Assembly (NCBI RefSeq): GCF_014596945.1
Contig: NZ_JACVXB010000002.1
Location: forward strand, 62,001 to 126,000
Direction of reading: 5' to 3'
Length of the DNA: 64,000 nt
Origin: Aestuariibaculum sediminum
GTDB lineage: Bacteria; Bacteroidota; Bacteroidia; Flavobacteriales; Flavobacteriaceae
Both the position numbers and the translations under genes were made by a program. Below the pieces are notes generated by a model that was given only the letters and a program-made list of their open reading frames with translations, searched no databases and was not told where the DNA came from. Of the stretch, positions 42,105 to 60,794 are shown piece by piece; position 1 is the first letter of the stretch; the number at the start of each line of letters is the position of its first letter.

Positions 42105-42107
42105 TAA

Positions 42108-43706: not shown

Positions 43707-43719
43707 CTAACAGGAAATT

Positions 43720-44844: not shown

Positions 44845-44901
44845 CAGTTTATTTTTATTTGTTTTTAATTAGTCAGATGTAATTCGCCATTAAACTTTTC
44901 G

Positions 44902-44913
44902 GTTGGTACCAAC
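44902..44913. promoter_or_regulatory. 12-bp perfect palindrome in the GH106-GH105 gap
   Basis: GTTGGTACCAAC is a perfect inverted repeat in the largest gap of the leftward operon, 58-69 bp upstream of the GH105 ATG. It could be an operator or a processing site. There is no T-run, so it does not look like a terminator. Confidence 0.35.
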
Positions 44914-44948
44914 TTAATTGTTATGGCTCATTTCATATTAAAATTGAA

Positions 44949-47681
44949 TTATTTTATTGTTTGTTTTAGTGGTGTTAACGTTACAGGACCTAATAATCCG
45001 GAAGGCATCGGGTTCCATAGTGTGGCGTCGAATTTTTGATAATCTTTATTCACCATATTAATTTCGAAAAATATTTTCCATTCTTCGCCTCGTAATTCTT
45101 TAGCACGTATTCTATTAGCAGGCAAATTGGTGACTTGTATTTTTAATTCGTTAGTCCCTTTTTTCAATTTGCCTAATTGAATATTGAAAGGTGCCGACCA
45201 GACATCTTCAACATACGTGCCATTTAACCAAACCTTCGCACTTTCACGAACATCGCCTAGGTTGAGTTTCCAATTGTCGGCTTCTATTTCAGGAGCTTCA
45301 AATTGAATCGTATAAGTTGCTGTCCCCGAAAACGCTTCGGCTTCAGTATTTAAATTAGTCCATGATTTTAAAGTGTTAATTTTTGCAGAATCAGGAAGTT
45401 TTGGGCCGCCTTTTTGAAAATTGATTGTCCAGGTTCCTGTTATTGGTATCGCTTCTGCGGAAGCGTTAAAATACAGCCAATCCTTTTGCGATTTTTTATT
45501 TTCGGTTTTAAGAAAGAGCGATTTTCCAGGTTCAATTTGAAGTTTTACCAAAGTCTGATTTTCTTCTTTTTTAACCAAAGCATTTCCAACCTTGCGCGTT
45601 AACGGATCTAAAATAATCACTTCTTTGTTCTTTGCTGTAATAGGAATAAAACCATCAATCGTGTTCGATGTATGATTTACCAAATAGTATATTTTTTCAC
45701 CATTTACATCTCTTCTAATGTATTTTAAACCGGTTTTAACTAAAGTTTCAGAATTTATATTGGCAGCTTTTAAATCGCCGAATAAATCTGATGTTGTTTC
45801 GAATAAGTTTTCATTGTTTGAAATTAAATCTGCTAATTCTTTATTTTGACTTTCGTAATCGTTAAAGCCAGGAACCGATTCTGGTAATCCTTCAAAGATG
45901 ATATGCCCTCCAGCTTGTTTTAATTTAAGTAATTTTTTCAAGGTTTTAAGCGGCATAAATTCAGAATCTGGAACCACTAACGATTTATAAGTTCCGCCAG
46001 GTAAAACAATAAAACCATTTTCAACAGAAGCTTTTTCAATAAATTTATCTGAAATAAAATCGGTGTTAATGCCTTTATCCATTAAGGTTTTGCAGGTGTT
46101 GTAAAATGGTGTATCGTGCAGCCATTCGTCTAAAGAGTGAATTTTAAACTGAAAGAATAATGAGTTTTTTAAGTTTTTACCCCAGGTATCATAAATGGGC
46201 CAATAGAGTAATGTTTCGTTATCTGGTTGCCCCGATTGAAGCATGGATTGACAATTGGAAATATATGAAAATAACGATGGCACATCTTCCCAAATGGTGT
46301 TATTCGGATTAAAGTTAACTGAAGCATAGAATTTCCATCCTGGCCAACCCGCTCTTTGAGGGGAGTAGGTAGAACCGTGTAAAAATACGTGGTTAATGCC
46401 GTTAAGCATTAAATCTTCAACCTCTGGTTTACATTGTGATAAAGCTGTTTTAAAGTGGTCGCGAAGCCATGTAAAGGTTTCTGAGGATGTTAAAGGTTTC
46501 CCGGCAATATGTGCTGCCGACGACGAAAATTTTAGCATTACAGGATCGGCATCGCCTTCGCGAATATCTTCAAGTTCTCTGCGAAACCCTGGAATATCGT
46601 AAGGCATCGAACCAAATGTTTCACACTCTGGAATATCGGCAGAAGCGTATAAATCAATAAGGTTTCCAGGAGAACCGTGCGCTTGTAGTTTGGTTTTAAA
46701 TTGTTTAGAATTTGCCCAGTATGTCCACGGAATATCGAATTTATTCAACAATAAATCCGATAAGGTTTCTCTGTAATCACTTTTAATACGGGTGCTAATT
46801 TCGTTATCGGTAGTGTCTAGCAATTGTTGTAAATGTGGTAATAAGTCGTAACCACGACGCGTTTTAAATTCATCAAAGAATTGAGGTGTAAATGTGGTAC
46901 CGTAAACCTCGTAACTGTCGTTAAAAATAGCACGAATTTTTCCATCGAAACCTTTTAAAGCTTCATTAAAAGGGGCAACATACTCGTTTAAAGCCTCGGT
47001 AGAGTAGTGGTCTAAGGTATATCCTTTACCGCCCGGCGCAGCACGTTTAACCTGCTGGCGTGTTTTTCCGCTGAATACAGCATAAATAGTGTAATCGGAA
47101 TCTTGAACTTGCCAGTTTAATAGGTTTTTGTTGTCGAGTTTATCGGTAATTTCTAGTGCATTTCCTGTATTATCGAAGGCGATAACATGTAATAGTTTAG
47201 CTAAACCATGCTGTTTTTTATCCTTCGGTTCTATGGTTTTGTTTATCGTTGCGCCTTTTTTTACGTGATATTTTTCAATAAGTAATTGCGTTGCAGCATA
47301 CTCGGGAGTGACTTGCGGTCCGCCATAAGGCCAGCCTGTTCCTAAAACCATATCGACACCTATTTGTAAACTATCGGCGATACGAATGGTATAATCTAAG
47401 ATATCCATGTATTTTGGCGATAGGAAATCTATAAAATTTTCTTCTTCACCTTTAACACCATAAATAGGCGTGATTTCTACACCACCTAATCCTGCTTTTT
47501 CAAAAGCTATTAAATGCGATTTAATGTTAGGTTTATCAACAGCACTTCCCATCCACCACCAGCGTGTCCATGGTTTTGTTGTTTTGGTTTGTTCTGGCCA
47601 AGGATTTGTATTTGGCTGCTTACAGTTAAAAAGCGTTAGGCAAATGACAATAACAAGCGAATATGTATGTTGAATTTTCAT
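44949..47681 (-). CDS. GH106 alpha-L-rhamnosidase
   Basis: A 910-residue lipoprotein (CLTLFNCKQPN). It opens with the GH106 signature KPWTRWWWMGSAVDKPNI, followed by FEKAGLGGVEITPIYG and DMVLGTGWPYGGPQVTPEYA. Further landmarks are IFNDSYEVYGTTFTPQF, ETFGSMPYDIPGFRRE, and a C-terminal GH2-like jelly roll (LNLGDVRESAKVWLNGTYVE, ELKIQVTNLPANRIR). It removes alpha-linked L-rhamnose from rhamnogalacturonan, arabinogalactan or ulvan-type chains. It is linked with an L-rhamnose mutarotase at 57.8 kb. I did not assign the two catalytic Glu residues with confidence. Confidence 0.92.
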   Translation of the reverse strand: MKIQHTYSLVIVICLTLFNCKQPNTNPWPEQTKTTKPWTRWWWMGSAVDKPNIKSHLIAFEKAGLGGVEITPIYGVKGEEENFIDFLSPKYMDILDYTIRIADSLQIGVDMVLGTGWPYGGPQVTPEYAATQLLIEKYHVKKGATINKTIEPKDKKQHGLAKLLHVIAFDNTGNALEITDKLDNKNLLNWQVQDSDYTIYAVFSGKTRQQVKRAAPGGKGYTLDHYSTEALNEYVAPFNEALKGFDGKIRAIFNDSYEVYGTTFTPQFFDEFKTRRGYDLLPHLQQLLDTTDNEISTRIKSDYRETLSDLLLNKFDIPWTYWANSKQFKTKLQAHGSPGNLIDLYASADIPECETFGSMPYDIPGFRRELEDIREGDADPVMLKFSSSAAHIAGKPLTSSETFTWLRDHFKTALSQCKPEVEDLMLNGINHVFLHGSTYSPQRAGWPGWKFYASVNFNPNNTIWEDVPSLFSYISNCQSMLQSGQPDNETLLYWPIYDTWGKNLKNSLFFQFKIHSLDEWLHDTPFYNTCKTLMDKGINTDFISDKFIEKASVENGFIVLPGGTYKSLVVPDSEFMPLKTLKKLLKLKQAGGHIIFEGLPESVPGFNDYESQNKELADLISNNENLFETTSDLFGDLKAANINSETLVKTGLKYIRRDVNGEKIYYLVNHTSNTIDGFIPITAKNKEVIILDPLTRKVGNALVKKEENQTLVKLQIEPGKSLFLKTENKKSQKDWLYFNASAEAIPITGTWTINFQKGGPKLPDSAKINTLKSWTNLNTEAEAFSGTATYTIQFEAPEIEADNWKLNLGDVRESAKVWLNGTYVEDVWSAPFNIQLGKLKKGTNELKIQVTNLPANRIRAKELRGEEWKIFFEINMVNKDYQKFDATLWNPMPSGLLGPVTLTPLKQTIK

Positions 47682-47702
47682 TGAAATTATTAAAATATCG
47701 AA

Positions 47703-48968
47703 TTAATTGATTTTTGATGCTTTGGCGATATCTACAGCGTAAATTTGTGAATTTCCCTCAAAGTTAGCTCTAAATATAATTTGTTTCCCGTTAGGTGAAA
47801 AATGTACGTTTGGCTCTAAATCGTAATCATGATGTTTCATATTAACAAGCTTTTCAGAAACCAAACTATCTCCCTTGGGAGTAAAATGATATAGCCACAT
47901 ACCGTCTTTAGCGCGCGCCACTTGTCCAGGGTCGCCACCATCTCCGGCAAAAGATTTTTGGTCGGGTGAAATATTATAATGAATGGACCACTCGTCGCGT
48001 TTTAATGCGTAGCGTGTTTCTTCACCAGAATCTAAATTTTTTCCTGCCAAATAAAAAGTTACGCTACGAGGTATTTGTAAATCGAACCAAATGGTTTTTC
48101 CGTCAGGACTAAAAAATTCATGTCCCGCAATTTCACGATGTACTGTTCTTTTATGGATTAAAGTAGTGTCTTTGGTTTTTATGTTAATATTCCAGATACG
48201 ATCTACTTTATGCCAGGGTCCTTCATGACAATACATAAGTAAATCTGTATGATCAGGGGAAAACTGTATATGATTAAGCCAAGCGTTTTCAGAGTAAATA
48301 CTAGAGAATTCTTTTGTTTTTATATTGATGGTAATTAAGCTACGTTTTAGTTTAGCATCATAAATTTTATCGAAATAACTTGATTTTTTTGGGTTCTTTT
48401 TAAAAATCTCTTGCTCTTCTTTAGTAATTAATGCACCAGCTAATAGAGTTTCATCAGCATTTAAGGTGGTAACCGAGCCTATAACATCATCATTGAATTT
48501 GTAGATGAATTCTGTTTTATGCGTGTCTATATGAGTTGAAAATACACTGTCTTTTATCATGTAGAATATCTTTCTGGTTTTAGATCCTACAATTTCCCCT
48601 CGTTTATTGCCTTTTTTATTTGTGATTTGCTGAACCTCTTTCGTAGCCAGATTAACTGTAAAATATTGATTGCCTGTTGGGGTATCTCCCGAAAAAACCA
48701 TTAAATCGTCTTGACCATCTGCAGATTTTAAAAAAGGGTTATTATGAAAATAGAAACTTCTGTTCGAACCTGACCTATTGACAATTTTTTCAACTTTATG
48801 ACCAGTTATAGAATCTATCCATATTTTGGTTAGAGAACTGGTTTTTCCTGTTTTCATTATAGGAATATTAATTAAGCTTTGTTCTACCAAATCTTTCTCC
48901 GAAGAATTTGTCTTGCAAGAACAATGAAGTAAAAGTATACTTACTAATATGATGGATGAACATTTCAT
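47703..48968 (-). CDS. PL22-like (oligogalacturonate lyase-type) seven-bladed propeller lipoprotein
   Basis: A 421-residue lipoprotein (LLLHCSCKTNSS) made of TolB-like propeller blades (QYFTVNLATKEVQQIT, FFSPDGKTIWFDLQ, VHFSPNGKQIIFRANFEG). The segments SFYFHNNPFLKSADG and WSIHYNISPDQKSFAGDGGD are those expected for PL22 oligogalacturonate lyases. In typical PL22 the last blade carries an HPH metal-ligand cluster before SFTP; here the aligned stretch is LEPNVHFSP, so metal ligands may be altered. It could act on an oligouronide other than galacturonate. It is 9 bp after GH28 and 21 bp before GH106 in the leftward operon. Confidence 0.75.
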   Translation of the reverse strand: MKCSSIILVSILLLHCSCKTNSSEKDLVEQSLINIPIMKTGKTSSLTKIWIDSITGHKVEKIVNRSGSNRSFYFHNNPFLKSADGQDDLMVFSGDTPTGNQYFTVNLATKEVQQITNKKGNKRGEIVGSKTRKIFYMIKDSVFSTHIDTHKTEFIYKFNDDVIGSVTTLNADETLLAGALITKEEQEIFKKNPKKSSYFDKIYDAKLKRSLITINIKTKEFSSIYSENAWLNHIQFSPDHTDLLMYCHEGPWHKVDRIWNINIKTKDTTLIHKRTVHREIAGHEFFSPDGKTIWFDLQIPRSVTFYLAGKNLDSGEETRYALKRDEWSIHYNISPDQKSFAGDGGDPGQVARAKDGMWLYHFTPKGDSLVSEKLVNMKHHDYDLEPNVHFSPNGKQIIFRANFEGNSQIYAVDIAKASKIN

Positions 48969-48977
48969 AAATTATAT

Positions 48978-50345
48978 TTAATAGTCTTTAAAATTTAAAA
49001 CATTAGAATGAATATGTTTTTCTTTTGTTAGAGTATCCACAATTACTTGTTTTAAAAAAATATCTTTAACAGGAAGTTCTTTTTGTCCTTCAATATTAGA
49101 TATATATTGTGTTTTTGTTGTTTTGATATTTGTAAGGTGTATGTTTTCGATTGGTGTAAGTTTACGTTCAATTGTTGGTACTAAATCGCGCCATTGGTAA
49201 AGTACATCGGTTTCTATGCCTAATACGCCGTTGGCAATGTTACCAGCTTTAATATTTTCAACAAAAATATTCTTTACATATCCACCCCGACGCTCATTGG
49301 TTTTAATAAAGACTAAATGATACATTTTAGCTCTGTTTTCAACAGTACAGTTTTCTACATAAACATTTTCTATTCCACCCGAAAGTTCACTCCCAATAGC
49401 AACCAATTGATGCCCGTTTTTCATTATGCAATTACGCATTACAATATTTTTTGAAGGTGTGTTAAGTCGCCAAGCATCTTGATTTCGACCGGATTTTATG
49501 GCAATAGCATCATCACCTTGATCGAAAACACAATTTTCAATTAATACATTTTCACTCATTTCAGGGTCTACGCCATCATTATTATGTCCGTGAGCATAAA
49601 CGTTTAAATTCCTGATTACTACATCTTTTGATAAATAGGGGTGAATGGTCCAAAACGGACTATTTTCAATAGAAATACCTTCTAATAAAATGTGTTTACT
49701 GCGATTAAACTGTATAAACTGCGGACGAAAATGAGCAGTATCATTTACCATTTGTCGTTCTTCAACAGGTTTGTTATATGAGGCGAGGTTGTAAAGCCGT
49801 TTTAAACTATTCATGTGGGGTTTTGGACGAGGAAACCAGGTTTCCCAAACATCCATTTTTGATTTCATAAGGCCCTCTCCAGTAATGGCAATATTCTCGC
49901 AATTATAAGCATAAACTAAAGGCGAATAATTATAACATTCCATACCTTCCCATGTAGAATGAACAGCAGGTAGGTAATCTTTAGGGGCTTCTGAAAATAG
50001 TAAAATAGCGCCTTTATTTAGATGCAAGTTGACATTACTTTTTAAATGAATGGCTTTGGTTAACCATTCGCCTTTAGGAATAACCACAATACCTCCATTG
50101 TTTTTGTTAGCTTCATTAATGGCATCGGAAATAGCTTTTGTAGTTAAATTTATGTTTCCTTCTTTAGCACCAAAAACCGTGATATTGAATTTTTTACAGG
50201 CGGTAAAATCAGGAATTTTAATAGCAGGCATGTTAAATGGAGCCTCTATTTTTATTGATGAAAATTTTATTTTACTCACCTGTTTACTGCAGGAATAAAA
50301 TATCACGAAAACAAAAAGCAATAAGACCTTAAAATGTTTAGACAT
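48978..50345 (-). CDS. GH28 polygalacturonase-type lipoprotein
   Basis: The start is set at 50345, which gives a lipoprotein signal (LLFVFVIFYSCSKQ); an upstream in-frame ATG at 50450 would lie beyond the predicted promoter. The right-handed beta-helix runs from FNITVFGAKEGN onward. Active-site acids are Asp257 in NNDGVDPE and Asp278/Asp279 in QGDDAIAIKSG. The usual GHG motif is GHQ here, and the usual RIK is FIK (FIKTNERRGGYV), so the substrate-binding subsites differ from classic polygalacturonases. GH28 members hydrolyse alpha-galacturonic or rhamnogalacturonan linkages. It is the first gene of the leftward operon, divergent from SusC. Confidence 0.88.
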   Translation of the reverse strand: MSKHFKVLLLFVFVIFYSCSKQVSKIKFSSIKIEAPFNMPAIKIPDFTACKKFNITVFGAKEGNINLTTKAISDAINEANKNNGGIVVIPKGEWLTKAIHLKSNVNLHLNKGAILLFSEAPKDYLPAVHSTWEGMECYNYSPLVYAYNCENIAITGEGLMKSKMDVWETWFPRPKPHMNSLKRLYNLASYNKPVEERQMVNDTAHFRPQFIQFNRSKHILLEGISIENSPFWTIHPYLSKDVVIRNLNVYAHGHNNDGVDPEMSENVLIENCVFDQGDDAIAIKSGRNQDAWRLNTPSKNIVMRNCIMKNGHQLVAIGSELSGGIENVYVENCTVENRAKMYHLVFIKTNERRGGYVKNIFVENIKAGNIANGVLGIETDVLYQWRDLVPTIERKLTPIENIHLTNIKTTKTQYISNIEGQKELPVKDIFLKQVIVDTLTKEKHIHSNVLNFKDY

Positions 50346-50374: not shown

Positions 50375-50382
50375 TAAAGATA
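50375..50382 (-). promoter_or_regulatory. Predicted -7 box (TATCTTTA) of the GH28 operon
   Basis: On the - strand TATCTTTA matches the Bacteroidota TAnnTTTG consensus in all but the last base. It lies 30 bp upstream of the GH28 ATG and exactly 18 nt downstream of the tandem motif at 50401-50420. Confidence 0.5.
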
Positions 50383-50400
50383 TTTTTTAGGTTTAAAAAT

Positions 50401-50420
50401 AGTATCCTGTAGCATCCTGT
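50401..50420 (-). promoter_or_regulatory. Tandem operator-like motif, site A (GH28 operon)
   Basis: Read on the - strand this is ACAGGATGCT followed directly by ACAGGATACT, two 10-bp direct repeats that differ at one position. The same architecture recurs at 50524-50543 and 55283-55302. It ends 18 nt before the predicted -7 box, where the -33 element would lie, as expected for an activator that contacts RNA polymerase. Confidence 0.65.
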
Positions 50421-50523
50421 TTTTGTCGCACACGTGAAAAAAATAAACATGTGATTATACTTGAAAAATGAAATTGAAAAAGGAACACTATTAGTTATAA
50501 TGTAAGATTATTCTTTGTTCAAA

Positions 50524-50543
50524 GCAGGTATGTACAGGATGCG
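50524..50543 (+). promoter_or_regulatory. Tandem operator-like motif, site C (SusCD operon)
   Basis: GCAGGTATGT followed by ACAGGATGCG. The second half-site is almost identical to those of sites A and B; the first is more divergent. It ends 18 nt upstream of TTTATTTG, the predicted -7 box of the SusC gene. Confidence 0.6.
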
Positions 50544-50561
50544 TTTTACATGAAATACAAG

Positions 50562-50569
50562 TTTATTTG
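50562..50569 (+). promoter_or_regulatory. Predicted -7 box (TTTATTTG) of the SusCD operon
   Basis: TTTATTTG differs from TAnnTTTG at one position. It lies 70 bp upstream of the SusC ATG and 18 nt after site C. Confidence 0.5.
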
Positions 50570-50639
50570 ATTACCAGCTAGATGTTAGGTGTGTGTAAAT
50601 CTGATGTTTAGCGAATAATTTAACTAAACTAAATAATTT

Positions 50640-53609
50640 ATGAAAAACAAATTTACTCTATTATTGGGGTTGCTCGTGTATTTAAACATGTGTACATTGA
50701 GTTTTGCTCAGGAAAAAACTGTAACAGGAGTTGTTACAGATCAATCTAGTACTCCGCTGCCAGGTGTTAATGTACTTGTTAAAAATGCAAGTAGAGGAAC
50801 AACAACAGATTTTGATGGGAACTATAGTGTTTCTGTTTCACTTGGTGAAACTTTAATTGTTTCCTATGTAGGTTTTAAGACTACTGAAGTTACTATTGGA
50901 AGCAAGGATGTTTACAATATTTCATTAGAAACAGATAATGCGCAATTAGATGAAGTGGTTGTTATTGGTTACGGAACACAAAAAAGGAAGGATGTAACTG
51001 GAGCTGTTGCTTCGATTAAATCGGAAAGTTTTATTGATGCACTACCCGTTGCACCAGAACAACTATTACAAGGAAAAATTGCAGGTGTAAACATTGTACA
51101 AAGTAGTGGACAGCCGGGTGCTGCTTCTACTGTAAGAATTAGAGGAACGAGTTCTATTTCTGCAGGAAATGATCCGCTTTATGTGGTTGATGGTGTACCA
51201 TTACAATTTGGAAGTGCTAATAATAGCATTCGTGTAGCAACTTCTGGATCTTCACCTCTATCAGAAGAGGCCATAAACCCTCTAACTTTAATTAACCCGG
51301 CAGATATAGAAAGTATAGATGTCTTGAAAGATGCTTCAGCCACTGCTATTTATGGCTCAAGAGGTGCGAATGGTGTGATAGTAATAACCACGAAAAATAA
51401 AGGTAAATTTGGAAGTTTTTTAACTTACGATTCATATTTTGGTGTTTCAAATGTTAGAGAGTATTTACCTGTTTTATCAGCAGAAGAATACCGGGATTAT
51501 GCAACAAGCAATAACTTGCCATTTTCAGATCAAGGAGCTAATACAAACTGGCAAAAGGAAGTATTTAGAACAGCCATAACGCAAAACCACAACATTTCAT
51601 TTGCAGGAGGATCAGAAACAACTAATGTTACCGGTTCATTAGGATATAATAATCAGGAAGGAACCATTTTAAATTCTCGCTTAAAGAAATATACGTCGAG
51701 ATTAAATGCCAATCATTCAGCCATTGATAATAGACTGAAACTGGGGGTAAATATAACATATGCAAATATAGATGATCAAAGAGCAGCAGTGAACTCTAAT
51801 ATTGCAGATGAAGGAGGAAATGCTTTAAAAGATGCCATTAGATGGGTGCCAACATTACCGGTTTACAATGCTGATGGTAGTTATTACCAAATTGGACCTT
51901 TACGAATAAACCCAGTATCTTGGGTTGATGTTACAGATCAAAGCGAGACATCGTTGTTTCTAGGTAATTTAGACGCCTCTTTTGAAATTATTGATGGTTT
52001 AAAGTTATCAACAAACATTGGGCATTCTAATGAAAATGTAAGTCGGTTTAATCAAATACCTTCAACGCATCCAGCAGGAGAAGGACAGGGAGGGTTCGCG
52101 TCGATTGGAAAATATAAAAACACCAATATTTTAGCGGAAACCAACCTTACTTTCGAAAAGCAACTTAATGCAAACAATCATATTTCTTTATTGGCAGGAT
52201 ACTCCTATCAAAGATTTGTAACACAAAATACATTTACTTCTGCAAATAATTTTGTGTCTGATGCTACCGAATGGAATTTAATTCAATCTGGAAGTATACA
52301 ATCTAATACTTCATTTAAAGATGCGAATCGGTTATCGTCTTATTACGGACGTTTAAATTATAAATTAAAAGACAGGTATTTGTTAACGTTTACATTAAGA
52401 CGTGATGGGTCTAGTAGGTTTGGAGCAAATAATAAGTGGGGTACTTTTCCTTCTGGTGCTTTAGCTTGGAATATAGCAGATGAAGATTTTATGACGGATT
52501 CTAAAATAAGTAATTTAAAACTAAGAGTAGGTTATGGTATAACTGGTAATCAGGAAATACCTAATAACCTTTACCGAGAGCAGCTTTCTATTGCTGGTTC
52601 TGCAGTATATTTGTTTGGAGGGCAAGCTATACCCAGTGTTCTTCCAACAAATTTTCCAAATCCAGATTTAAAATGGGAAGAAACTAGCCAGTTAAATACA
52701 GGTATAGATTTTGGTTTTTTTAATCAAAGATTTTCGGGTTCTATCGATTATTATGTGAAAAAAACAAACGATTTACTTTTACAATTCTCAACGGCAGCTC
52801 CTTCGGTTGTTTCAACACAATGGGCAAATGTAGGAGAAGTAGAAAATAAAGGTTTCGAAGTTAACTTAAATGCAGATATTTTAAATAAAGGTGATTTCAG
52901 ATGGACGGCTAACTTAAACTTTTCAACAAATAAAAATGAAGTTATAAGTCTATCTAATGATAACTTTCAAAGAGATGAGATTCGAACCGCTAGTGGTTCG
53001 GGGGTTGTTGGTAATAATGCAGCCACACAAATAATTAAGCCAGGATTACCTTTAAACACTTTTTATGGATGGAAATTTACAGGGTACGATGAAAATGGTT
53101 TAGAAACATATTTAGATGAAGACGGTGAGGATGGAGCAGACGAAGTAGTTATTGGCGATGCAAATCCAGATTGGACCTTCGGCTTTAATAATACTTTTAA
53201 CTATAAAAGAATAGATGTAACCTTAAATTTTCGAGGTGTAGTAGGTAATGATATATACAATAATACTGCGGCAGAGTTTTCATATGTAAGTCAGGCACCT
53301 GGTATTAATGTTCTAAAATCGGCCTTAACTACTGGAGCTAGTAGAACCCAAACAGCACAATATTCTTCACAATGGTTAGAAGATGGAAGTTATTTAAGGT
53401 TAGATAATTTAACCGTAGGATACAATTTTAATGTTGATAAAGTAAGTTTTATTAATAAAGCAAAATTGTATCTAACAGGTAGTAATTTATTTGTTATTAC
53501 GGGATATTCAGGTTACGATCCTGAAGTAAGAACACGATCTGTAGGAATAGATTATCTCGTTTACCCTCGACCAAGGACTTTTCAGATAGGAACAAGTATC
53601 TCATTTTAA
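50640..53609 (+). CDS. SusC-like TonB-dependent outer-membrane transporter (block 2)
   Basis: A 989-residue SusC-type receptor with a clean signal peptide (ending TLSFAQE). A carboxypeptidase-regulatory-like domain follows (KTVTGVVTDQSSTPLPGVNV, DFDGNYSVSV). The TonB-box region is DEVVVIGYGTQKRKD; the plug has the usual VLKDASATAIYGSRGANGVI and a VRIRGTSSISAGNDPLYVVDG segment. The barrel ends in QIGTSISF. It imports oligosaccharides released at the surface by block 2 enzymes. The leader region carries the tandem motif shared with the divergent GH28 operon and the sulfatase operon. Its SusD partner starts 19-31 bp downstream. Confidence 0.96.
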   Translation: MKNKFTLLLGLLVYLNMCTLSFAQEKTVTGVVTDQSSTPLPGVNVLVKNASRGTTTDFDGNYSVSVSLGETLIVSYVGFKTTEVTIGSKDVYNISLETDNAQLDEVVVIGYGTQKRKDVTGAVASIKSESFIDALPVAPEQLLQGKIAGVNIVQSSGQPGAASTVRIRGTSSISAGNDPLYVVDGVPLQFGSANNSIRVATSGSSPLSEEAINPLTLINPADIESIDVLKDASATAIYGSRGANGVIVITTKNKGKFGSFLTYDSYFGVSNVREYLPVLSAEEYRDYATSNNLPFSDQGANTNWQKEVFRTAITQNHNISFAGGSETTNVTGSLGYNNQEGTILNSRLKKYTSRLNANHSAIDNRLKLGVNITYANIDDQRAAVNSNIADEGGNALKDAIRWVPTLPVYNADGSYYQIGPLRINPVSWVDVTDQSETSLFLGNLDASFEIIDGLKLSTNIGHSNENVSRFNQIPSTHPAGEGQGGFASIGKYKNTNILAETNLTFEKQLNANNHISLLAGYSYQRFVTQNTFTSANNFVSDATEWNLIQSGSIQSNTSFKDANRLSSYYGRLNYKLKDRYLLTFTLRRDGSSRFGANNKWGTFPSGALAWNIADEDFMTDSKISNLKLRVGYGITGNQEIPNNLYREQLSIAGSAVYLFGGQAIPSVLPTNFPNPDLKWEETSQLNTGIDFGFFNQRFSGSIDYYVKKTNDLLLQFSTAAPSVVSTQWANVGEVENKGFEVNLNADILNKGDFRWTANLNFSTNKNEVISLSNDNFQRDEIRTASGSGVVGNNAATQIIKPGLPLNTFYGWKFTGYDENGLETYLDEDGEDGADEVVIGDANPDWTFGFNNTFNYKRIDVTLNFRGVVGNDIYNNTAAEFSYVSQAPGINVLKSALTTGASRTQTAQYSSQWLEDGSYLRLDNLTVGYNFNVDKVSFINKAKLYLTGSNLFVITGYSGYDPEVRTRSVGIDYLVYPRPRTFQIGTSISF

Positions 53610-53640
53610 TTAAAACCAGTAAAATTTAATGAATCACAAA

Positions 53641-55224
53641 ATGAAAAATATATATAATTTAATAAAAAAGGTGAAGTTTCTGGTTATTAGCTGCACGTTG
53701 CTTGTAATAACAGCCTGTAGTCTTGAAGAAGACGTGTATTCTATATACACGCCAGAAACATTTTATTCAAATGAAGCACAAGTGCTTTCTTCTTTATCAG
53801 GTATTTATAGGAACTTTGCTGCTACTACCGGTATGGGAGTAGAGTATAGATGTTTAGAACTTCCTGCCGATCAGGTAGTCGTGCATGAAAAAATTCAAGG
53901 CTGGTGGGGCGGAGCTAATTTTGCAGAACTTATGGAACACACCTGGACACCGAGTCATGCTTATATAGCTGGTACATGGAATTCCTATTTTAGAACAGTT
54001 GGGCAAACAAATGCTTTAATAGCTTCATTAGAAAGTTCAGCACTAAGTGAAGAGGAAATTGCAGGGCCACTTGCTGAATTACATTCGTTAAGAGCTTATG
54101 CCTATTTCTTCTTAATGGACTTATTCGGAAACGTGCCGATTTTTACGCTTCCAAAGGTTGATGCTCTAAATTTACCTGAACAAAATACTAGGGCAGAGGT
54201 TTTTGATTTTGTAACTTCTGAATTAATAGAAGCATCTAAAAATTTGCCAACTAAGGCGGCTTCAGGAGATGGCTATTATGGACGTTTTACAAAAGAAGCA
54301 GCTCAGGCATTATTAGCAACTATTTATTTAAATGCTGAAGTGTATACAGGAACCTCAGAGTATGAACTAGCTGAAAAATATGCAGACTCTGTAATAAACT
54401 CTAACGCTTATAGTTTATTACCTGATTATTTTGATAATTTCGTTTATAATAACCAAAATAATAACGAGTTTATTTTTGGAGCAATTTATTCACCAGATAT
54501 TGCTGGAGGTATAGGGCATCCACTTGTTCAAAAAGTACTTCCAGGAATACAGGGTGGATTATTTGGATTACCGTACACTCCTCAGAATGGATTTGGTACT
54601 AGACCATCAATTTTGGCACTGTATGAAGATGAAGACGATAGAAAAAAACTGATAATACCTTATGGAGAACTAAAAGATCCTAGAACAGGGGAGACTGTAA
54701 TGGTTGAGCGCATTGTTCCAGATAATAACTCAGTTCTATATAAAGAAGGTGTGTCTTCAGAAGGACCTGTTCCATATGAAATTATTCCAGCAACAGGAAT
54801 TCGTTTACAACCAATGAATGCAGGTTTAAAATGGATTAAATGGGGCCTAGACCCTAATACCAATGGCGGTAATGCTGGAAATGACATTGCATTTATCAGG
54901 TTTGCAGATATTCTACTTATAAAGGCAGAGGCCCTTGCAAGACAAGGTAAATTTGATTTAGCCAAGGACTGGGTAAATAGAGTAAGGTTAAGAAGTCATG
55001 CCAACCAATTAGATAGCGTGACTTTAGATGATATTTTAAACGAAAGAGGTCGAGAATTAGCCTTCGAAATGAGTAGAAGGCGTGATTTAATTCGTTTTGG
55101 GAAATTCGGAGATGCTTGGGAGTTTAAAGAGGTGTCTGAGCCTTATAGAACTATTTTTCCAATTCCTAAAACAGCTATCGAGTCTAACCCTAAATTAACA
55201 CAAAACCCAGGGTACCCGAACTAA
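53641..55224 (+). CDS. SusD/RagB-like lipoprotein (block 2)
   Basis: About 527 residues; the start is placed at the second ATG (53641; 53629 is also possible). The lipoprotein signal ends TLLVITACSLEED. SusD hallmarks: ELHSLRAYAYFFLMDLFGNVPIF, FIRFADILLIKAEALARQGK, and the C-terminal ERGRELAFEMSRRRDLIRFGKF with FPIPKTAIESNPKLTQNPGY. It forms the lid of the preceding SusC. A strong terminator follows 22 bp after its stop, so the SusCD pair forms its own transcript. Confidence 0.95.
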   Translation: MKNIYNLIKKVKFLVISCTLLVITACSLEEDVYSIYTPETFYSNEAQVLSSLSGIYRNFAATTGMGVEYRCLELPADQVVVHEKIQGWWGGANFAELMEHTWTPSHAYIAGTWNSYFRTVGQTNALIASLESSALSEEEIAGPLAELHSLRAYAYFFLMDLFGNVPIFTLPKVDALNLPEQNTRAEVFDFVTSELIEASKNLPTKAASGDGYYGRFTKEAAQALLATIYLNAEVYTGTSEYELAEKYADSVINSNAYSLLPDYFDNFVYNNQNNNEFIFGAIYSPDIAGGIGHPLVQKVLPGIQGGLFGLPYTPQNGFGTRPSILALYEDEDDRKKLIIPYGELKDPRTGETVMVERIVPDNNSVLYKEGVSSEGPVPYEIIPATGIRLQPMNAGLKWIKWGLDPNTNGGNAGNDIAFIRFADILLIKAEALARQGKFDLAKDWVNRVRLRSHANQLDSVTLDDILNERGRELAFEMSRRRDLIRFGKFGDAWEFKEVSEPYRTIFPIPKTAIESNPKLTQNPGYPN

Positions 55225-55245
55225 TTAGTATTGAGTTTAATAATT

Positions 55246-55282
55246 AAAATGCACTGCAGTAATTTTGCAGTGCATTTTTTTT
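55246..55282 (+). terminator. Strong rho-independent terminator after SusCD
   Basis: A perfect 13-bp stem (55246-55258 with 55266-55278, core ATGCACTGCA) and a 7-nt loop are followed by a T-run to 55282. The next promoter's tandem motif starts immediately after it. Confidence 0.9.
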
Positions 55283-55302
55283 ACAGTATACCACAGGATA
55301 CT
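55283..55302 (+). promoter_or_regulatory. Tandem operator-like motif, site B (sulfatase operon)
   Basis: ACAGTATACC followed by ACAGGATACT. The second half-site is identical to one in site A (on the other strand). It ends 18 nt upstream of TATATTTA. Confidence 0.65.
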
Positions 55303-55320
55303 CTTCAAATTCTAAACTAA

Positions 55321-55328
55321 TATATTTA
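55321..55328 (+). promoter_or_regulatory. Predicted -7 box (TATATTTA) of the sulfatase operon
   Basis: TATATTTA matches TAnnTTTG except for the last base. It lies 31 bp upstream of the sulfatase ATG and 18 nt after site B, the same geometry as at the other two promoters. Confidence 0.5.
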
Positions 55329-55359: not shown

Positions 55360-56742
55360 ATGATCAATAGGTATTTACAAGCTACTTTAAGTTTTTTCGT
55401 ATTGTCTTTACTTATAAGTTGTCAAAAAATATCAAATTCAAGAACTAGTAAAGAAAACCTAAGCCAACCAAATTTTTTAGTAATAATTACGGACGACGCG
55501 GGTTGGAATGATGTTGGTTATAATGGTTCTGAAATTAAAACGCCGAATATTGATAGTTTAGCGCACCGCGGAGTAAAATTAAATCGGTTTTATGTAAGCC
55601 CTACCTGCTCACCTTCGCGGGTTTCTTTGTTAACAGGCATGCCCTCAAGTAGAATTGGTGTTGTTGCCCCTATTAGCGGAAAAAGTAATAAAACTTTACC
55701 TGATTCTATAACAACCTTACCACAAGCTTTAAAACTAAACAATTATCAAAATGCTTTATTTGGAAAATGGCATTTGGGGTTAGATATTAATAACGGACCT
55801 AATGCTTTCGGGTTTGATTATTCTTATGGATTTTTGCATGGTCAAATCGATCAGTATACACACCGATATAAAAATGGTGATGCCAGTTGGTATAGAAATA
55901 ATAAAATGATTGATGAAGAAGGCCATACCACAGATTTAGTGACAAAAGAAGCGATTGATTGGTTAACTAAAAAACGCGATACTTCCAAGAGTTTTTATGT
56001 GCAGTTAGCCTACAGCGCTCCACATTTTCCGTTGCAGGAAGAAGAAAAATGGAAAGCACCCTATTATAATACAATAAAAGATAGCTCGAGAATGGATTTT
56101 GCAGCAGCCATGACGCATATGGATTATTGTATTGGCAAAGTTATGGAAACATTGAAGTCTGAAAATCTTGAAGAAAATACGTTAGTTATTTTTATGAGCG
56201 ATAATGGAGCTATGGAACATTGGTATCCAACTTATCAATACGATGGAAAATTTAAAGGAAATGATGTTTTAGGGAGTAATTTTCCGTTGCGCGATTGGAA
56301 AACTTCTAATTTTGAAGGCGCCATTCGAGTACCTGCAATAGCTTATTGGAAAGATCATCTAAGTCCTCAAGACAATACAAATTACATGTCAGTAAGCGAT
56401 ATTATGCCAACCATTTTATCATTAATTGAAGCAGACATTCCTGATTATGCTGAAGGAACAAATGTTTGGACTTCAATTTTAAATGCTGAAATAGAAACCA
56501 ATCACGATATTTATATACGAGGTCATATTCAGGAAAGCCTTATTCATAAACCTTGGAAAATTATTAGAAATCGTCACAAAAATGGTTCATTAGCAGTATA
56601 TCAATTATATCACATTGAAAATGACCCAGAAGAAAAATTCAACCTGATTAATGATGAAGTTGAAATTGCTAAACAAATGAAAATTTTACTTGAAAAACAG
56701 TTTTTAAAGGACGATAAAACAGTAAACGTAGAATTAAAATAG
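55360..56742 (+). CDS. S1-family (formylglycine-type) sulfatase lipoprotein
   Basis: A 460-residue lipoprotein (LSLLISCQKIS). Metal-binding acids are in IITDDAGWNDVGY near the N-terminus. The sulfatase signature is CSPSR at residues 83-87, with Cys83 to be converted to formylglycine, followed by LLTGMPSSRIG. GKWHLG, APHFPLQEEEKW and the MSDNGAMEHW segment complete the alkaline-phosphatase-like fold. It removes sulfate esters from sugars; position specificity cannot be read by eye. It shows that the block 2 substrate is probably sulfated. The maturase that makes formylglycine is not in this window. Two genes follow with 16-bp and 15-bp spacers. Confidence 0.94.
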   Translation: MINRYLQATLSFFVLSLLISCQKISNSRTSKENLSQPNFLVIITDDAGWNDVGYNGSEIKTPNIDSLAHRGVKLNRFYVSPTCSPSRVSLLTGMPSSRIGVVAPISGKSNKTLPDSITTLPQALKLNNYQNALFGKWHLGLDINNGPNAFGFDYSYGFLHGQIDQYTHRYKNGDASWYRNNKMIDEEGHTTDLVTKEAIDWLTKKRDTSKSFYVQLAYSAPHFPLQEEEKWKAPYYNTIKDSSRMDFAAAMTHMDYCIGKVMETLKSENLEENTLVIFMSDNGAMEHWYPTYQYDGKFKGNDVLGSNFPLRDWKTSNFEGAIRVPAIAYWKDHLSPQDNTNYMSVSDIMPTILSLIEADIPDYAEGTNVWTSILNAEIETNHDIYIRGHIQESLIHKPWKIIRNRHKNGSLAVYQLYHIENDPEEKFNLINDEVEIAKQMKILLEKQFLKDDKTVNVELK

Positions 56743-56758
56743 ACACTTTTTAGAATAA

Positions 56759-57769
56759 ATGAAAAATAAGCTAATTCACTTTATATGTTTATTATTTGTA
56801 ATGTCAGCATGTGTATCCCAAAAAACAAAATCAAACCAAACAGAAGTTGCCGATAAACCTTTGTTTAGAGACCCGGTTTTCGACGGGGCTGCCGATCCTT
56901 CTATTCTTTATAATGACAAAGAAAAACTTTGGTACATGTTTTACACCAACCGCCGGGCAAAAGATACCACTTTAGGTGGTGTAGCTTGGGTGCATGGAAC
57001 TAAAATTGGTGTAGCGACATCTAAAAATGGAGCACATTGGTCGTATAAAGGTACTTGTAATATCGATTATAATATTGAAAATGTTACACACTGGGCTCCC
57101 GATGTTTTAGAGTTTAATGGGTTGTATCATATGTATTTAACCATTGTTCCTGGGATTTTCGAGGGGTGGTACCACCCACGATATATTGTACATTTAACCA
57201 GTAAAAATATGATAGATTGGGAGTTCCAGTCTGAATTAAAACTAGCATCAGAGCGTTGTATCGATGCCGATGTATTTCGATTGCCTAACGGTACCTGGCG
57301 CATGTATTACAATAATGAAAACGACGGAAAATCTATTTATTATGCTGATAGTAAAGATTTGTATCATTGGGAGGACAGTGGAAAAAAAGTTATAAAAGAT
57401 AGGGGTGAAGGTCCTAATGTATTTCAATGGAAAGGTAAAAACTGGATGGTTAATGACGCCTGGCGTGGACTTGGTGTTTACTGGTCAGATGATTTTGAAG
57501 TTTGGCATCGTCAGGAGAAAAATATTTTACAAATTCCTGGGACAGGTAAGGATGATCAAGTTATTGGTGGGCATCCCGATGTTGTAGTTCGGGGAGAGAA
57601 AGCATACGTCTTTTATTTTACGCACCCAGGTCGAACCCCTGAAAATAAAGGAAAGGATACTTACGACACCAGAAGAACGTCCATTCAAGTGGCAGAATTA
57701 AAATATGTTGATGGTAATATTATATGCGATCGAAATGCATCAGTTTACATCAATTTAAATAAGAATTAA
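56759..57769 (+). CDS. GH43-like five-bladed propeller lipoprotein
   Basis: A 336-residue lipoprotein (LLFVMSACVSQKT). The triad is visible as GAADPSIL, CIDADVFR and RGEGPNVF. TNRRAKDTTLGGVAWVHGTK in the first blade and GHPDVVVRGEKAYVFYFTHPGR near the end are distinctive and set it apart from the other GH43 proteins in the window. It sits between a sulfatase and rhamnose mutarotase, so it probably acts on a desulfated, rhamnose-linked oligosaccharide. GH117-type or other clan-F enzymes are alternatives. Confidence 0.8.
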   Translation: MKNKLIHFICLLFVMSACVSQKTKSNQTEVADKPLFRDPVFDGAADPSILYNDKEKLWYMFYTNRRAKDTTLGGVAWVHGTKIGVATSKNGAHWSYKGTCNIDYNIENVTHWAPDVLEFNGLYHMYLTIVPGIFEGWYHPRYIVHLTSKNMIDWEFQSELKLASERCIDADVFRLPNGTWRMYYNNENDGKSIYYADSKDLYHWEDSGKKVIKDRGEGPNVFQWKGKNWMVNDAWRGLGVYWSDDFEVWHRQEKNILQIPGTGKDDQVIGGHPDVVVRGEKAYVFYFTHPGRTPENKGKDTYDTRRTSIQVAELKYVDGNIICDRNASVYINLNKN

Positions 57770-58367: not shown

Positions 58368-60794
58368 ATGCGATTTTTATTTTTAATAGTTTTTTTTAGT
58401 GTTTTACATTCAACTTCAATTTTTGCACAATCTCGCAGGGTTATCGATTTAAAGGATGGTTGGAAATTCTCTAAAGGAAATATAGAAAAGGCATCTCAAA
58501 AAGACTTCGACGATACAACTTGGGAAACCGTAACCGTACCACATGATTGGGCCATTTACGGACCTTTTGATAAGGAAATCGATAAACAAACCGTAGCCAT
58601 AGAGCAAAACGGCGAAAAAACGGCAACAGAAAAAACAGGGCGTACAGGTGCTTTACCCTATATTGGCGATGGCTGGTACAGAAAAGCATTTAAACTTTCA
58701 GAATTAAATAAAAACGAAAAAGTATTGTTGACATTTGATGGAGCTATGAGTCAGCCAAAAGTTTATGTCAATGGTAAAAAAGTAGGCGAGTGGAACTATG
58801 GTTACAACTATTTTTATTTCGATATTACTGATGTTTTGGAAACAGAAAACGTATTGGCAGTTCATTTAACCAATCAAGGTGAGTCTTCTCGTTGGTATCC
58901 AGGAGCAGGATTATACAGAAAAGTGCGGGTAATAGTTAAAAATAAAGAAAGTATAGATCATTGGGGAACATTTATAACAACGCCTATGGTTTCAAAAGAC
59001 ATCGCTAAAATTAATGTCAAGACCAATATTTCAGGAAACAACCTGAAATTAATTACCGATATTTTTGATACAGAAGGTAATAAGGTAGCTTCAAACGAAA
59101 CAACAACGATTTTTCAGAATCAATTCGAACAAAACATACCTGTTAATAATCCAAGTTTATGGAGTCCAGAGTCACCGTATTTATATACAGCAATTTCAAA
59201 ATTGTATAAAAATAATCAATTAATTGATGAGGTTAAAACTCGTTTTGGAATTCGATATATTGCTTATGAAGCTAACAAAGGTTTTAGTTTAAATGGACAG
59301 GTTCGAAAATTTAAAGGCGTGTGTTTACACCACGATTTAGGCCCTTTGGGTGCAGCGATAAACACTTCGGCGTTACGCAGACAGTTACGTATTTTAAAAG
59401 ACATGGGTGTCGATGCCATTAGGAGTTCGCACAATATGCCATCTTTGGAACAGCTGGATTTATGCGACGAAATGGGTTTTATGTTTTTAGCAGAAAGTTT
59501 TGATGAATGGGCTAAGGCGAAAGTGAAAAACGGTTATCATCAGTTTTTTGAAACCGATGTCGAGAAAGACTTAGTTAATTTAATTCATGCCACTAGAAAT
59601 CATCCATGCATTGTCATGTGGAGTTCAGGAAATGAAGTGCCCGATCAATTTGGAGCAGCAGGTGTTAAACGTGCTAAGTATCTTCAGGATGTTTTTCATC
59701 GTGAAGACCCAACACGTCCTGTAACAGTAGGTATGGATCGTGTTGATCAAACTATGAAATCTGGCTTTGGAGCCCTTTTAGATGTTCCAGGTTTAAATTA
59801 TAGGCTACATTTATACGAAGAAGCATTCGAAAAATTTCCGCAGGGGTTTATATTGGGGTCCGAAACAGCTTCTACAGTTAGTTCTCGAGGTGTTTATAAA
59901 TTTCCCGTTGAAAAGGCGAAGATGAAACAATACGATGATTTTCAGTGTTCGTCTTACGATTTAGAGTATTGCAGTTGGTCTAATGTTCCCGACGATGATT
60001 TTGTACTTCAGGATGATAAACCTTGGGTTATAGGCGAATTTGTATGGACAGGTTTCGATTATTTGGGAGAACCAACACCTTACGATACCAAATGGCCGTC
60101 GCGTAGTTCATATTTTGGTATTAATGATTTGGCGGGTTTACCAAAAGATCGTTTTTACTTATACCGCAGCCGTTGGAACACCAAAGATGAAACGTTGCAC
60201 ATATTGCCACATTGGAATTGGGAAGGTCGTGAAGGCGAAACTACACCAGTTTTTGTCTACACGAGCTATAATAGTGCCGAGTTGTTTATTAACGGAAAAA
60301 GTATGGGCGTACAAAAAAAGAATCACGATTCGCCACAAAATCGTTACCGCCTCATGTGGATGGACGTAAAATACGAACCCGGAACTGTAAAAGTGGTTGC
60401 TTTTGATGATGATGGAAATCCTACAGAAGAAAAAGAAATACACACCGCAGGAAAGCCTTATAAAATTGTATTGGAGCCTGAAAAACAAATCTTAAAAGCA
60501 AACGGCGAGGATTTAGCATTTGTGAGAGTTTCAGTAGTCGATAAAAATGGCATTCCTTGCCCAAAAGCAACTAATCAGCTAAATTTTAAAGTTTCCGGAG
60601 AAGGAATCTATAGAGCAGCGTGTAACGGTGATGCTACCTCGTTAGAGTTGTTTCATTTGCCAACCATGAAATTGTTTAGCGGGCAATTGGTTGTTTTGGT
60701 TCAAGCTAGTAAGCAACCAGGAGATATTAAATTAAACGTAAGTGGGAAAGGATTAAAAAAAGGTGTTATACATTTGAAGTCTATTAAAAATTAA
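58368..60794 (+). CDS. GH2 family glycosidase (beta-galactosidase-type, DUF4982-containing)
   Basis: An 808-residue exported protein (signal ending TSIFAQ). The GH2 order is jelly roll (WETVTVPHDWAIYGPF, GWYRKAFKL, MSQPKVYVNGKKVGEW), Ig-like domain, TIM barrel with acid/base Glu423 in WSSGNEVPDQ and nucleophile Glu557 in VIGEFVWTGFDYLGEP, then DUF4982-like and Ig-like C-terminal domains (NSAELFINGKSMGVQ, AFVRVSVVDKNGIPCP). This clade mostly contains beta-galactosidases; beta-glucuronidase is possible. It has its own leader region, separate from the sulfatase operon. A decayed copy of its 3' end lies at about 63.7 kb. Confidence 0.92.
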   Translation: MRFLFLIVFFSVLHSTSIFAQSRRVIDLKDGWKFSKGNIEKASQKDFDDTTWETVTVPHDWAIYGPFDKEIDKQTVAIEQNGEKTATEKTGRTGALPYIGDGWYRKAFKLSELNKNEKVLLTFDGAMSQPKVYVNGKKVGEWNYGYNYFYFDITDVLETENVLAVHLTNQGESSRWYPGAGLYRKVRVIVKNKESIDHWGTFITTPMVSKDIAKINVKTNISGNNLKLITDIFDTEGNKVASNETTTIFQNQFEQNIPVNNPSLWSPESPYLYTAISKLYKNNQLIDEVKTRFGIRYIAYEANKGFSLNGQVRKFKGVCLHHDLGPLGAAINTSALRRQLRILKDMGVDAIRSSHNMPSLEQLDLCDEMGFMFLAESFDEWAKAKVKNGYHQFFETDVEKDLVNLIHATRNHPCIVMWSSGNEVPDQFGAAGVKRAKYLQDVFHREDPTRPVTVGMDRVDQTMKSGFGALLDVPGLNYRLHLYEEAFEKFPQGFILGSETASTVSSRGVYKFPVEKAKMKQYDDFQCSSYDLEYCSWSNVPDDDFVLQDDKPWVIGEFVWTGFDYLGEPTPYDTKWPSRSSYFGINDLAGLPKDRFYLYRSRWNTKDETLHILPHWNWEGREGETTPVFVYTSYNSAELFINGKSMGVQKKNHDSPQNRYRLMWMDVKYEPGTVKVVAFDDDGNPTEEKEIHTAGKPYKIVLEPEKQILKANGEDLAFVRVSVVDKNGIPCPKATNQLNFKVSGEGIYRAACNGDATSLELFHLPTMKLFSGQLVVLVQASKQPGDIKLNVSGKGLKKGVIHLKSIKN

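Follow-up and report, generated by a model that had tools for sequence, protein, structure and literature searches.

Three promoters in a 64,000-nucleotide stretch of the genome of Aestuariibaculum sediminum (Flavobacteriaceae; contig NZ_JACVXB010000002.1, positions 62,001 to 126,000; hereafter the window, G000:C14:62001-126000 in our numbering, within an own genome of 4.04 Mb) share a tandem direct repeat of two 10-bp boxes placed 18 nt (N18) upstream of the -7 box. We propose that this repeat is probably the operator of an L-rhamnose-linked regulator of the GntR family, likely a class-II-type activator that would take the place of a -33 element. Five computed observations bear on this proposal: the geometry of the site, its location at promoters, the content of its regulon, its co-occurrence with a GntR gene, and the covariation of the box letters with the clade of the GntR protein.

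A tandem repeat at a near-constant distance from the -7 box

The three sites and their -7 boxes are as follows.

50401-50420, (-): site 1, putative GH28 operon, tandem 10-bp repeat ACAGGATGCT-ACAGGATACT
50375-50382, (-): -7 box of site 1, TATCTTTA, N18 downstream of the repeat
50524-50543, (+): site 2, susCD, tandem repeat GCAGGTATGT-ACAGGATGCG
50562-50569, (+): -7 box of site 2, TTTATTTG, N18 downstream of the repeat
55283-55302, (+): site 3, sulfatase operon, tandem repeat ACAGTATACC-ACAGGATACT
55321-55328, (+): -7 box of site 3, TATATTTA, N18 downstream of the repeat

An earlier note on this DNA had described these elements and read them as one shared regulatory site; its letters, coordinates and spacings are all present in the sequence. 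Site 1 has no mismatch to the family-wide pattern and site 2 has 3, the latter being a weaker copy with 5 mismatches to the pattern of the tandem-only scan. A genome of the same genus has all three sites at its corresponding block (L145 6709-, 6813+ and 11639+); there, the counterpart of site 2 (L145:6813) has 2 mismatches to the family-wide pattern. When the window was scanned for the tandem alone with up to 3 mismatches, sites 1 and 3 were found against 0.03 expected from shuffles. The only further match, obtained at 5 mismatches, lies at 58905 within an open reading frame (ORF) and has no -7 box at N18, so the other gene starts of the window are free of full tandem copies, as the note had it.

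A window holding only three sites might owe them to chance or to a repeat-element artefact. We give this next to no credence, as it is already refuted by the shuffle expectation and by the reversed pattern, which gave 0 matches in the own genome and 18 (counted by eye) against 606 real matches (a total from hand transcription) in 397 genomes of the family. With up to 3 mismatches, a limit on which site counts depend, 112 of these genomes have at least one match.

The period of the repeat was analyzed in 39 stretches (824 kb; the window and stretches of GntR-bearing genomes, chosen for holding sites). A partner box stands at distance 10 for 63 of 160 strong half-sites, and for at most 3 at any other distance from 6 to 40 (1 at distance 20, none at 21). 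The same stretches gave 96 tandem sites without requiring a -7 box: 67 of them show TANNTTTR at N18, and no other gap has it more than twice; at N18, 5 or more of the 6 -7 letters are present in 88, and 2 of the remaining 8 are triple arrays with the last pair at N18. Because this sample had been chosen for holding N18 sites, we re-tested the gap on 79 genomes chosen by a close GntR gene alone and not by sites (repeat plus TANNTTTR, at most 1 mismatch). The gap is N18 at 83 places in 43 genomes, N17 at 3 places and N19 at 6, of which 3 are N18 read one base off, and the reversed pattern gave 0 at each of the three gaps. This supports the rigid promoter geometry described in the note. The true N19 places are two in G228 and one in G030; those of G228 (C1:766761 and C1:74242) are near-perfect repeats and possible natural spacing variants. 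In the own genome, the tandem alone occurs at 7 places, with a -7-like box at N18 in 5, including all 4 that have at most 2 mismatches.

A profile of 103 sites reads RCAGKATAGT-ACAGGATRS, spacer, TAnnTTTR, the last element partly by selection, and its spacer and flanks hold almost no information. Judged from the profile, with no separate symmetry test, it is a direct repeat and not a palindromic GT...AC operator. Together with a comparison of promoters, it revealed no extra conserved upstream, spacer or -33 element, the -33 part of this comparison being without power. Many copies away from promoters, which the note had named as evidence that would speak against a shared promoter site, did not appear: 100 of the 103 sites have half or more of their length outside ORFs of at least 100 aa, in DNA that is 15.4% non-coding (stretches chosen for sites), and in 80 of the 94 sites with a following ORF the start codon is within 150 nt.

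A distance to the -7 box that is nearly fixed would also be expected if the repeat were a core promoter element of an alternative sigma factor. This is very improbable, since the -7 box is of the ordinary sigma-A Bacteroidota type (TAnnTTTR), a second, similar box placed 10 bp upstream fits tandem protein binding, as do arrays of 3-6 boxes (L136, L202, L112), and the letters covary with the GntR clade (see below). In the arrays, which have three boxes at L136:8726 and L202:3495 and six at L112:1461-1520 (G184), the last pair is at N18. In G212, two divergent tandem sites stand almost back to back (L143:15030(-) and 15034(+)), an arrangement that suggests four subunits on a short stretch.

The GntR gene that accompanies the sites

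The earlier note had seen no regulator gene in the window, in agreement with our Pfam analysis, which found a regulator domain in none of the 32 window ORFs of at least 120 aa (5 of them match no Pfam family). The regulator gene that co-occurs with the sites was found through the site clusters of G110, G125 and G163, which hold rhamnose genes and a GntR gene, a family that was among the regulator classes proposed in the note. In A. sediminum, it lies outside the window, at G000:C16:150561-151619, and encodes 353 aa. The N-terminus is a winged helix of the GntR family (PF00392, 53.7 bits against a cut-off of 27), and the protein matches solved GntR domains, including AraR 4egy. Pfam detected no aminotransferase-like domain in it, and its matches to NCBIfam MocR models end at about residue 93.

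A homologue search in the 397 family genomes gave 79 with a best match of E < 1e-100 and 53-100% identity, here termed close GntR. Below them there is a gap, the next homologues being of 45% identity or less; the cut was set after seeing this gap, from 4e-119 to 2e-87. For the co-occurrence tables, the lists of sites, GntR genes and isomerases were transcribed by hand. All 63 genomes with at least 3 sites have a close GntR, and the 318 genomes without it have at most 2 sites each; at least 1 site is present in 78 genomes with a close GntR and in 34 without. A single genome, G256, has a close GntR but no site, and there ACGGTACAGT-ACAGGACAGA, N18, TAGTTTAG lies about 130 bp from the GntR gene and had been overlooked through the mismatch limit.

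Rhamnose isomerase was found in 92 of the 397 genomes. The mean number of sites is 7.4 in the 75 genomes with GntR and isomerase, 0.18 in the 17 with isomerase and no close GntR, 3.0 in the 4 with GntR and no isomerase, and 0.12 in the 301 with neither. Because the 17 isomerase-positive genomes without a close GntR are nearly site-free, the sites track the regulator and not the rhamnose pathway; a motif tied to the pathway itself is ruled out by the same genomes.

Thirteen named genomes, at least 4 of which duplicate members of the 397, were scanned as well. The ten with a close GntR have 3-17 sites: Croceivirga radicis 5, Salegentibacter sp. oa5 14, Zobellia russellii 11, Flavobacterium sp. 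CF136 13, an uncultured Winogradskyella 16, Leeuwenhoekiella parthenopeia 7, Hyunsoonleella jejuensis 16, H. ulvae 17, Jejuia pallidilutea 3 and Euzebyella marina 7. Maribacter sp. ACAM166 and Tamlana laminarinivorans, without a close GntR, have 0, and a 2.5-Mb metagenome assembly, whose homologue reaches just 36% identity, has 2 sites.

Five GntR matches per genome were found in G132, G145, G374, G044 and G339. Two site-like matches each were found in G219, G246, G195, G133 and G337, which have no close GntR, and some of these may belong to distant paralogues.

The letters of the boxes vary with the protein. Seven isomerase-positive genomes without a close GntR carry a diverged GntR (39-44% identity) that forms its own well-supported clade, clade B. 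The tree comprises 53 rows (tblastn matches of more than 300 residues; an earlier pass kept those of more than 250), sorted into 40 of clade A, 7 of clade B, 2 intermediate and 4 others. Fourteen loci were scanned without regard to letters, for two 10-mers at least 7/10 alike and followed by a -7 box at N18. ACAGAAC-type repeats turned up in G108, G357 and G222 and a degenerate relative in G307; G247, G384 and G037 gave no repeat. The clade B repeats read approximately RCAGAACRST at N18, mostly beside the GntR gene, and AGGAT of clade A is thus replaced by AGAAC. In an altered-letter search of 26 genomes, AGAAC in box 2 was found only in G108, G357, G222, G384 and G247; box 2 contains AGGA in each of the nine matches from GntR-A genomes, which have 2-3 mismatches, G207 and G247 gave one stray match each, and the reversed pattern gave 2 matches. 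The predicted recognition-helix pair is EK in 40/40 clade A proteins (39 SRDT[VI]EK, one SRNTVEK) and VR or VK in 7/7 clade B proteins, and the intermediate proteins of G020 and G064 combine EK with AGG-type sites.

Another hypothesis is that the sites belong to a different rhamnose regulator, either an AraC-type RhaR or an AraC-domain hybrid two-component system (HTCS), co-inherited with the GntR gene. The known Bacteroides rhamnose regulator is of the AraC type, and direct repeats are described as typical of AraC-type and hybrid systems in the excerpts of PMC3878776 and PMC3870299. The repeats reported there have a 21-bp periodicity, or consist of 12-16-bp sites with 5-9-bp spacers, against 10 bp here; moreover, the box letters covary with the GntR helix and the presence of sites follows GntR rather than the rhamnose pathway. 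From repeat spacing, box letters and co-occurrence, we consider this hypothesis improbable. HTCS, SusR and AraC readings of the repeat were discarded on the difference in repeat spacing.

The proposed rhamnose regulon and its possible mode of regulation

The genome-wide scan bears on a further claim of the note, namely that the regulon is linked to rhamnose and specific to one block of the window. The link to rhamnose stood; the restriction to the block is ruled out, since own-genome copies also precede the rhamnose operon, two rhamnogalacturonan lyases and a second SusCD. The repeat with N18 and the -7 box (at most 3 mismatches) occurs at 10 places. The match at C15:597363, with its poor -7 box, is probably due to chance. 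The other nine are at the 3 window operons and, for 6 of them, before genes elsewhere; the latter are listed here together with the sites of a looser scan.

C14:509001 = L130:9047, (-): site before the bifunctional rhamnulose-1-phosphate aldolase/dehydrogenase gene, then rhamnose-isomerase-like and FGGY-kinase genes
C11 and C19: sites before two PL11 rhamnogalacturonan lyases
C15:222254: site before a fasciclin-domain gene with the second SusCD
C16:149126: site before a GH2 gene
C1: site before a DUF4998/DUF5013 gene
L130:9213, looser scan: divergent site before D-mannonate oxidoreductase, UxuA, LUD-domain and KduI genes
L133, looser scan: two weaker sites (3 and 4 mismatches) flanking the GntR gene (L133:11559-12620), before a GDSL esterase gene and a GH28 gene

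A site thus precedes the core rhamnose catabolic genes of the own genome. The aldolase/dehydrogenase matches TIGR02632 above cut-off, the rhamnose isomerase is named from its best match only (TIGR02629, 496 bits against a cut-off of 647), and the FGGY kinase matches PF00370 above cut-off and rhamnulokinase models below it, its name being that of the best match. Because the regulon pairs rhamnose with uronate genes, its content would fit a rhamnogalacturonan-like glycan. The window sulfatase and the members of its family (F0) in site clusters further suggest that the regulon may cover sulfated rhamnose glycans, the substrates being deduced from gene content. The analysis covered 18 members of this family, which is frequent in the clusters of G110, G125 and G212; a second F0 gene of the own genome is at L133:1979-3499, in the stretch that holds the GntR gene. 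No relatives of the sulfatase were found in viral contigs.

From these data, we infer how the regulator could work. The GntR protein would join its winged helix to an effector domain weakly like periplasmic-binding proteins. Direct repeats that lie on one face of the helix imply a head-to-tail order of subunits. Each of the two 10-bp boxes would hold one GntR subunit, both in the same orientation and on that one face. As the Flavobacterium sigma-A box lies at -12 to -5 (PMC9723704, in the part consulted), the two boxes would cover about -50 to -31, which supports, as a position, the view of the note that the repeat sits where a -33 element would be and favours an activator. The bound protein could there replace the -33 element and contact RNA polymerase in class-II style. 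The signal would be rhamnose or a breakdown product of rhamnogalacturonan-like glycans; its presence would turn on the catabolism of rhamnose and uronate as well as the polysaccharide utilisation blocks.

Given the regulator, activation is favoured with reasonable confidence, because a near-constant gap to the -7 box, in two diverged clades, suits a protein that touches RNA polymerase. On the other hand, the same GntR protein could be a repressor that covers the -33 region without rhamnose and is released on sugar binding. Many GntR regulators of sugar genes are repressors, the site overlaps the position of RNA polymerase, and the last letters of box 2 (T-R-S) fall where the TTG core of a -33 element would be. 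A repressor, however, needs no exact gap, whereas 83 near-perfect sites have N18 and only 3 each have N17 or N19, and N18 also recurs in the diverged clade B sites. In addition, the TTG core was seen in 0/19 motif promoters, a count of low power, and the direct-repeat-binding MocR proteins of the GntR family include activators according to excerpts of PMC5320631. Repression is therefore rather unlikely, and we retain it because the -33 comparison is without power.

Several points weigh against a GntR activator as the protein acting at these sites. GntR proteins of such build are often repressors, as are AraR of Bacillus subtilis and FucR of Bacteroides thetaiotaomicron. TTG at 16-25 nt occurs in 0/19 motif promoters and in almost none of 35 others, so that this comparison has no power, and a few sites are at N17 or N19. 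The C-terminal match of the protein to Peripla_BP_3 reaches 20 bits, below the cut-off of 26.5. The Fisher p of about 1e-58 for genomes with at least 3 sites is overstated, because related genomes are not independent. There is also a small excess of matches in GntR-negative genomes (39 in 318, against 18 reversed-pattern matches in 397), and since 2-5 GntR matches occur in several genomes, the sites may serve more than one protein, GntR paralogues included. As regards the covariation, the 13 tabulated clade B sites were partly picked with the altered pattern and their letter counts are not independent, and G307 and G037 of clade B have only weak copies (3-4 mismatches). The EK pair also extends beyond clade A: the GntR of G024, one of the four other rows, has EK, and its locus shows no A-type site, only a related TAAGGACTGT-ATAGGACTGT repeat at N18. 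Finally, GntR regulators usually bind palindromes (excerpts of PMC4494728), and this repeat is not one.

With a GntR activator as the favoured reading, we would, somewhat more cautiously, regard the 46-bp cassette of two boxes, 18 nt and -7 box as a portable on-switch. Through it, a GntR class-II-type activator would wire polysaccharide loci of Flavobacteriaceae to rhamnose sensing, those for rhamnogalacturonan here and sulfatase-rich clusters elsewhere, with up to 20 sites per genome, and the box letters could be read from, and changed via, the EK/VR pair. For polysaccharide utilisation loci, less is known about the regulators of environmental Flavobacteriaceae than about those of Bacteroides. 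One site of fixed geometry predicts, from the DNA alone, which loci could respond to rhamnose, and it leads to the regulator gene in public genomes, among them those of Croceivirga radicis, Zobellia russellii and Hyunsoonleella ulvae. If the proposal is true, GntR would join the AraC, DeoR and LacI families named for rhamnose regulons in the part of PMC3870299 consulted; it would also provide an example of direct-repeat operators read by a GntR protein, with two clades as a natural experiment on specificity, and a basis for the design of inducible promoters for flavobacteria.

Parallels can be drawn with several known systems, as they are described in excerpts of the papers cited. The Bacteroides RhaR also activates rhamnose catabolic targets from a direct-repeat site (PMC3878776, PMC3870299), but it is an AraC protein with a 21-bp periodicity and a single operon, whereas a GntR protein, a 10-bp period and polysaccharide loci are involved here. 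The DeoR-family RhaR of Rhizobiales and others is alike in period, with imperfect direct repeats of 10-11 bp at rhamnose genes (PMC3870299) against 10 here; it differs in belonging to an unrelated regulator family and to other groups, the linked regulator here being GntR (DeoR genes were not surveyed). MocR proteins (GabR, PdxR, TauR), NanR, FarR and NagQ likewise place a GntR winged helix on head-to-tail boxes, and several MocR proteins are activators (PMC4494728, PMC5320631). However, MocR proteins carry an aminotransferase-like domain that Pfam did not find here, the box sequences differ, and no such fixed promoter geometry is seen in the consulted descriptions of direct-repeat GntR regulators. 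HTCS and SusR of Bacteroides also use direct repeats upstream of SusCD-type loci (PMC3878776), but in place of a 10-bp period, HTCS have 12-16-bp sites with 5-9-bp spacers, and the centres of the SusR repeats are separated by 67/77 bp; their cognate regulator stands beside the locus, and no regulator domain was found in the 32 window ORFs. FucR of Bacteroides thetaiotaomicron is a GntR regulator of a 6-deoxyhexose pathway (PMC3878776, Table 2); it differs in serving fucose and a single operon, and is likened here by description, not by sequence or motif. The 2013 survey of rhamnose regulons describes AraC regulators (21-bp repeats, Bacteroides and others), DeoR regulators (10-11-bp) and LacI regulators, and the words 'GntR' and 'Flavobacteri' are absent from its main text (PMC3870299). 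Among the literature matches listed, judged by title and start of abstract and without subscription papers or RegPrecise, there was no flavobacterial GntR rhamnose regulon and no such motif.

Genes of the window and spread of the site

The genes behind the three sites, and one DNA signal between them, are the following.

48978-50345, (-): GH28-type protein, first gene behind site 1 (PF00295, PF12708), ATG at 50345
34450-48968, (-): further same-strand genes by Pfam, namely PF14583 oligogalacturonate-lyase-like, GH106 alpha-L-rhamnosidase, GH88, GH43, GH115, GH2 and BD-FAE esterase
50640-55224, (+): susC-like TonB receptor and susD, behind site 2 (PF00593/PF07715, PF07980/PF14322)
55246-55282, (+): terminator-like hairpin and T run between susD and site 3, from sequence and folding
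55360-57769, (+): sulfatase and GH43, behind site 3 (PF00884, PF04616)
58368-60794, (+): GH2 gene after the sulfatase and GH43 genes, by GH2 domains

The start of the GH28 gene was taken as the ATG at 50345; the mechanical ORF, which reaches 50450, would take in site 1. Judged from spacing, this gene and the further (-) genes at 34450-48968 would form one operon. Since a terminator-like hairpin separates susD from site 3, the sulfatase promoter may be a start point separate from susCD. The stretch 55225-55290 folds with -22.8 kcal/mol (z -6.4), and the T run of this strong hairpin directly abuts site 3.

A draw from the phylum gave matches in 72 of 345 genomes; these are strongest within the family, and some belong to other members of its order and class. 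Genomes of other families with 3-5 matches are G416, G549, G648, G577, G421, G701 and G724, and G416 has a series of GCAGGACACT-ACAGGATAGT matches; the switch may reach beyond the family.

One more ORF of the window is unusual. At 30019-34092 (+), a 1357-aa ORF fuses FG-GAP/ASPIC-UnbV repeats to a vanadium-chloroperoxidase-like (VCPO) domain and a type IX secretion tail, the VCPO match being weak and the tail near cut-off.

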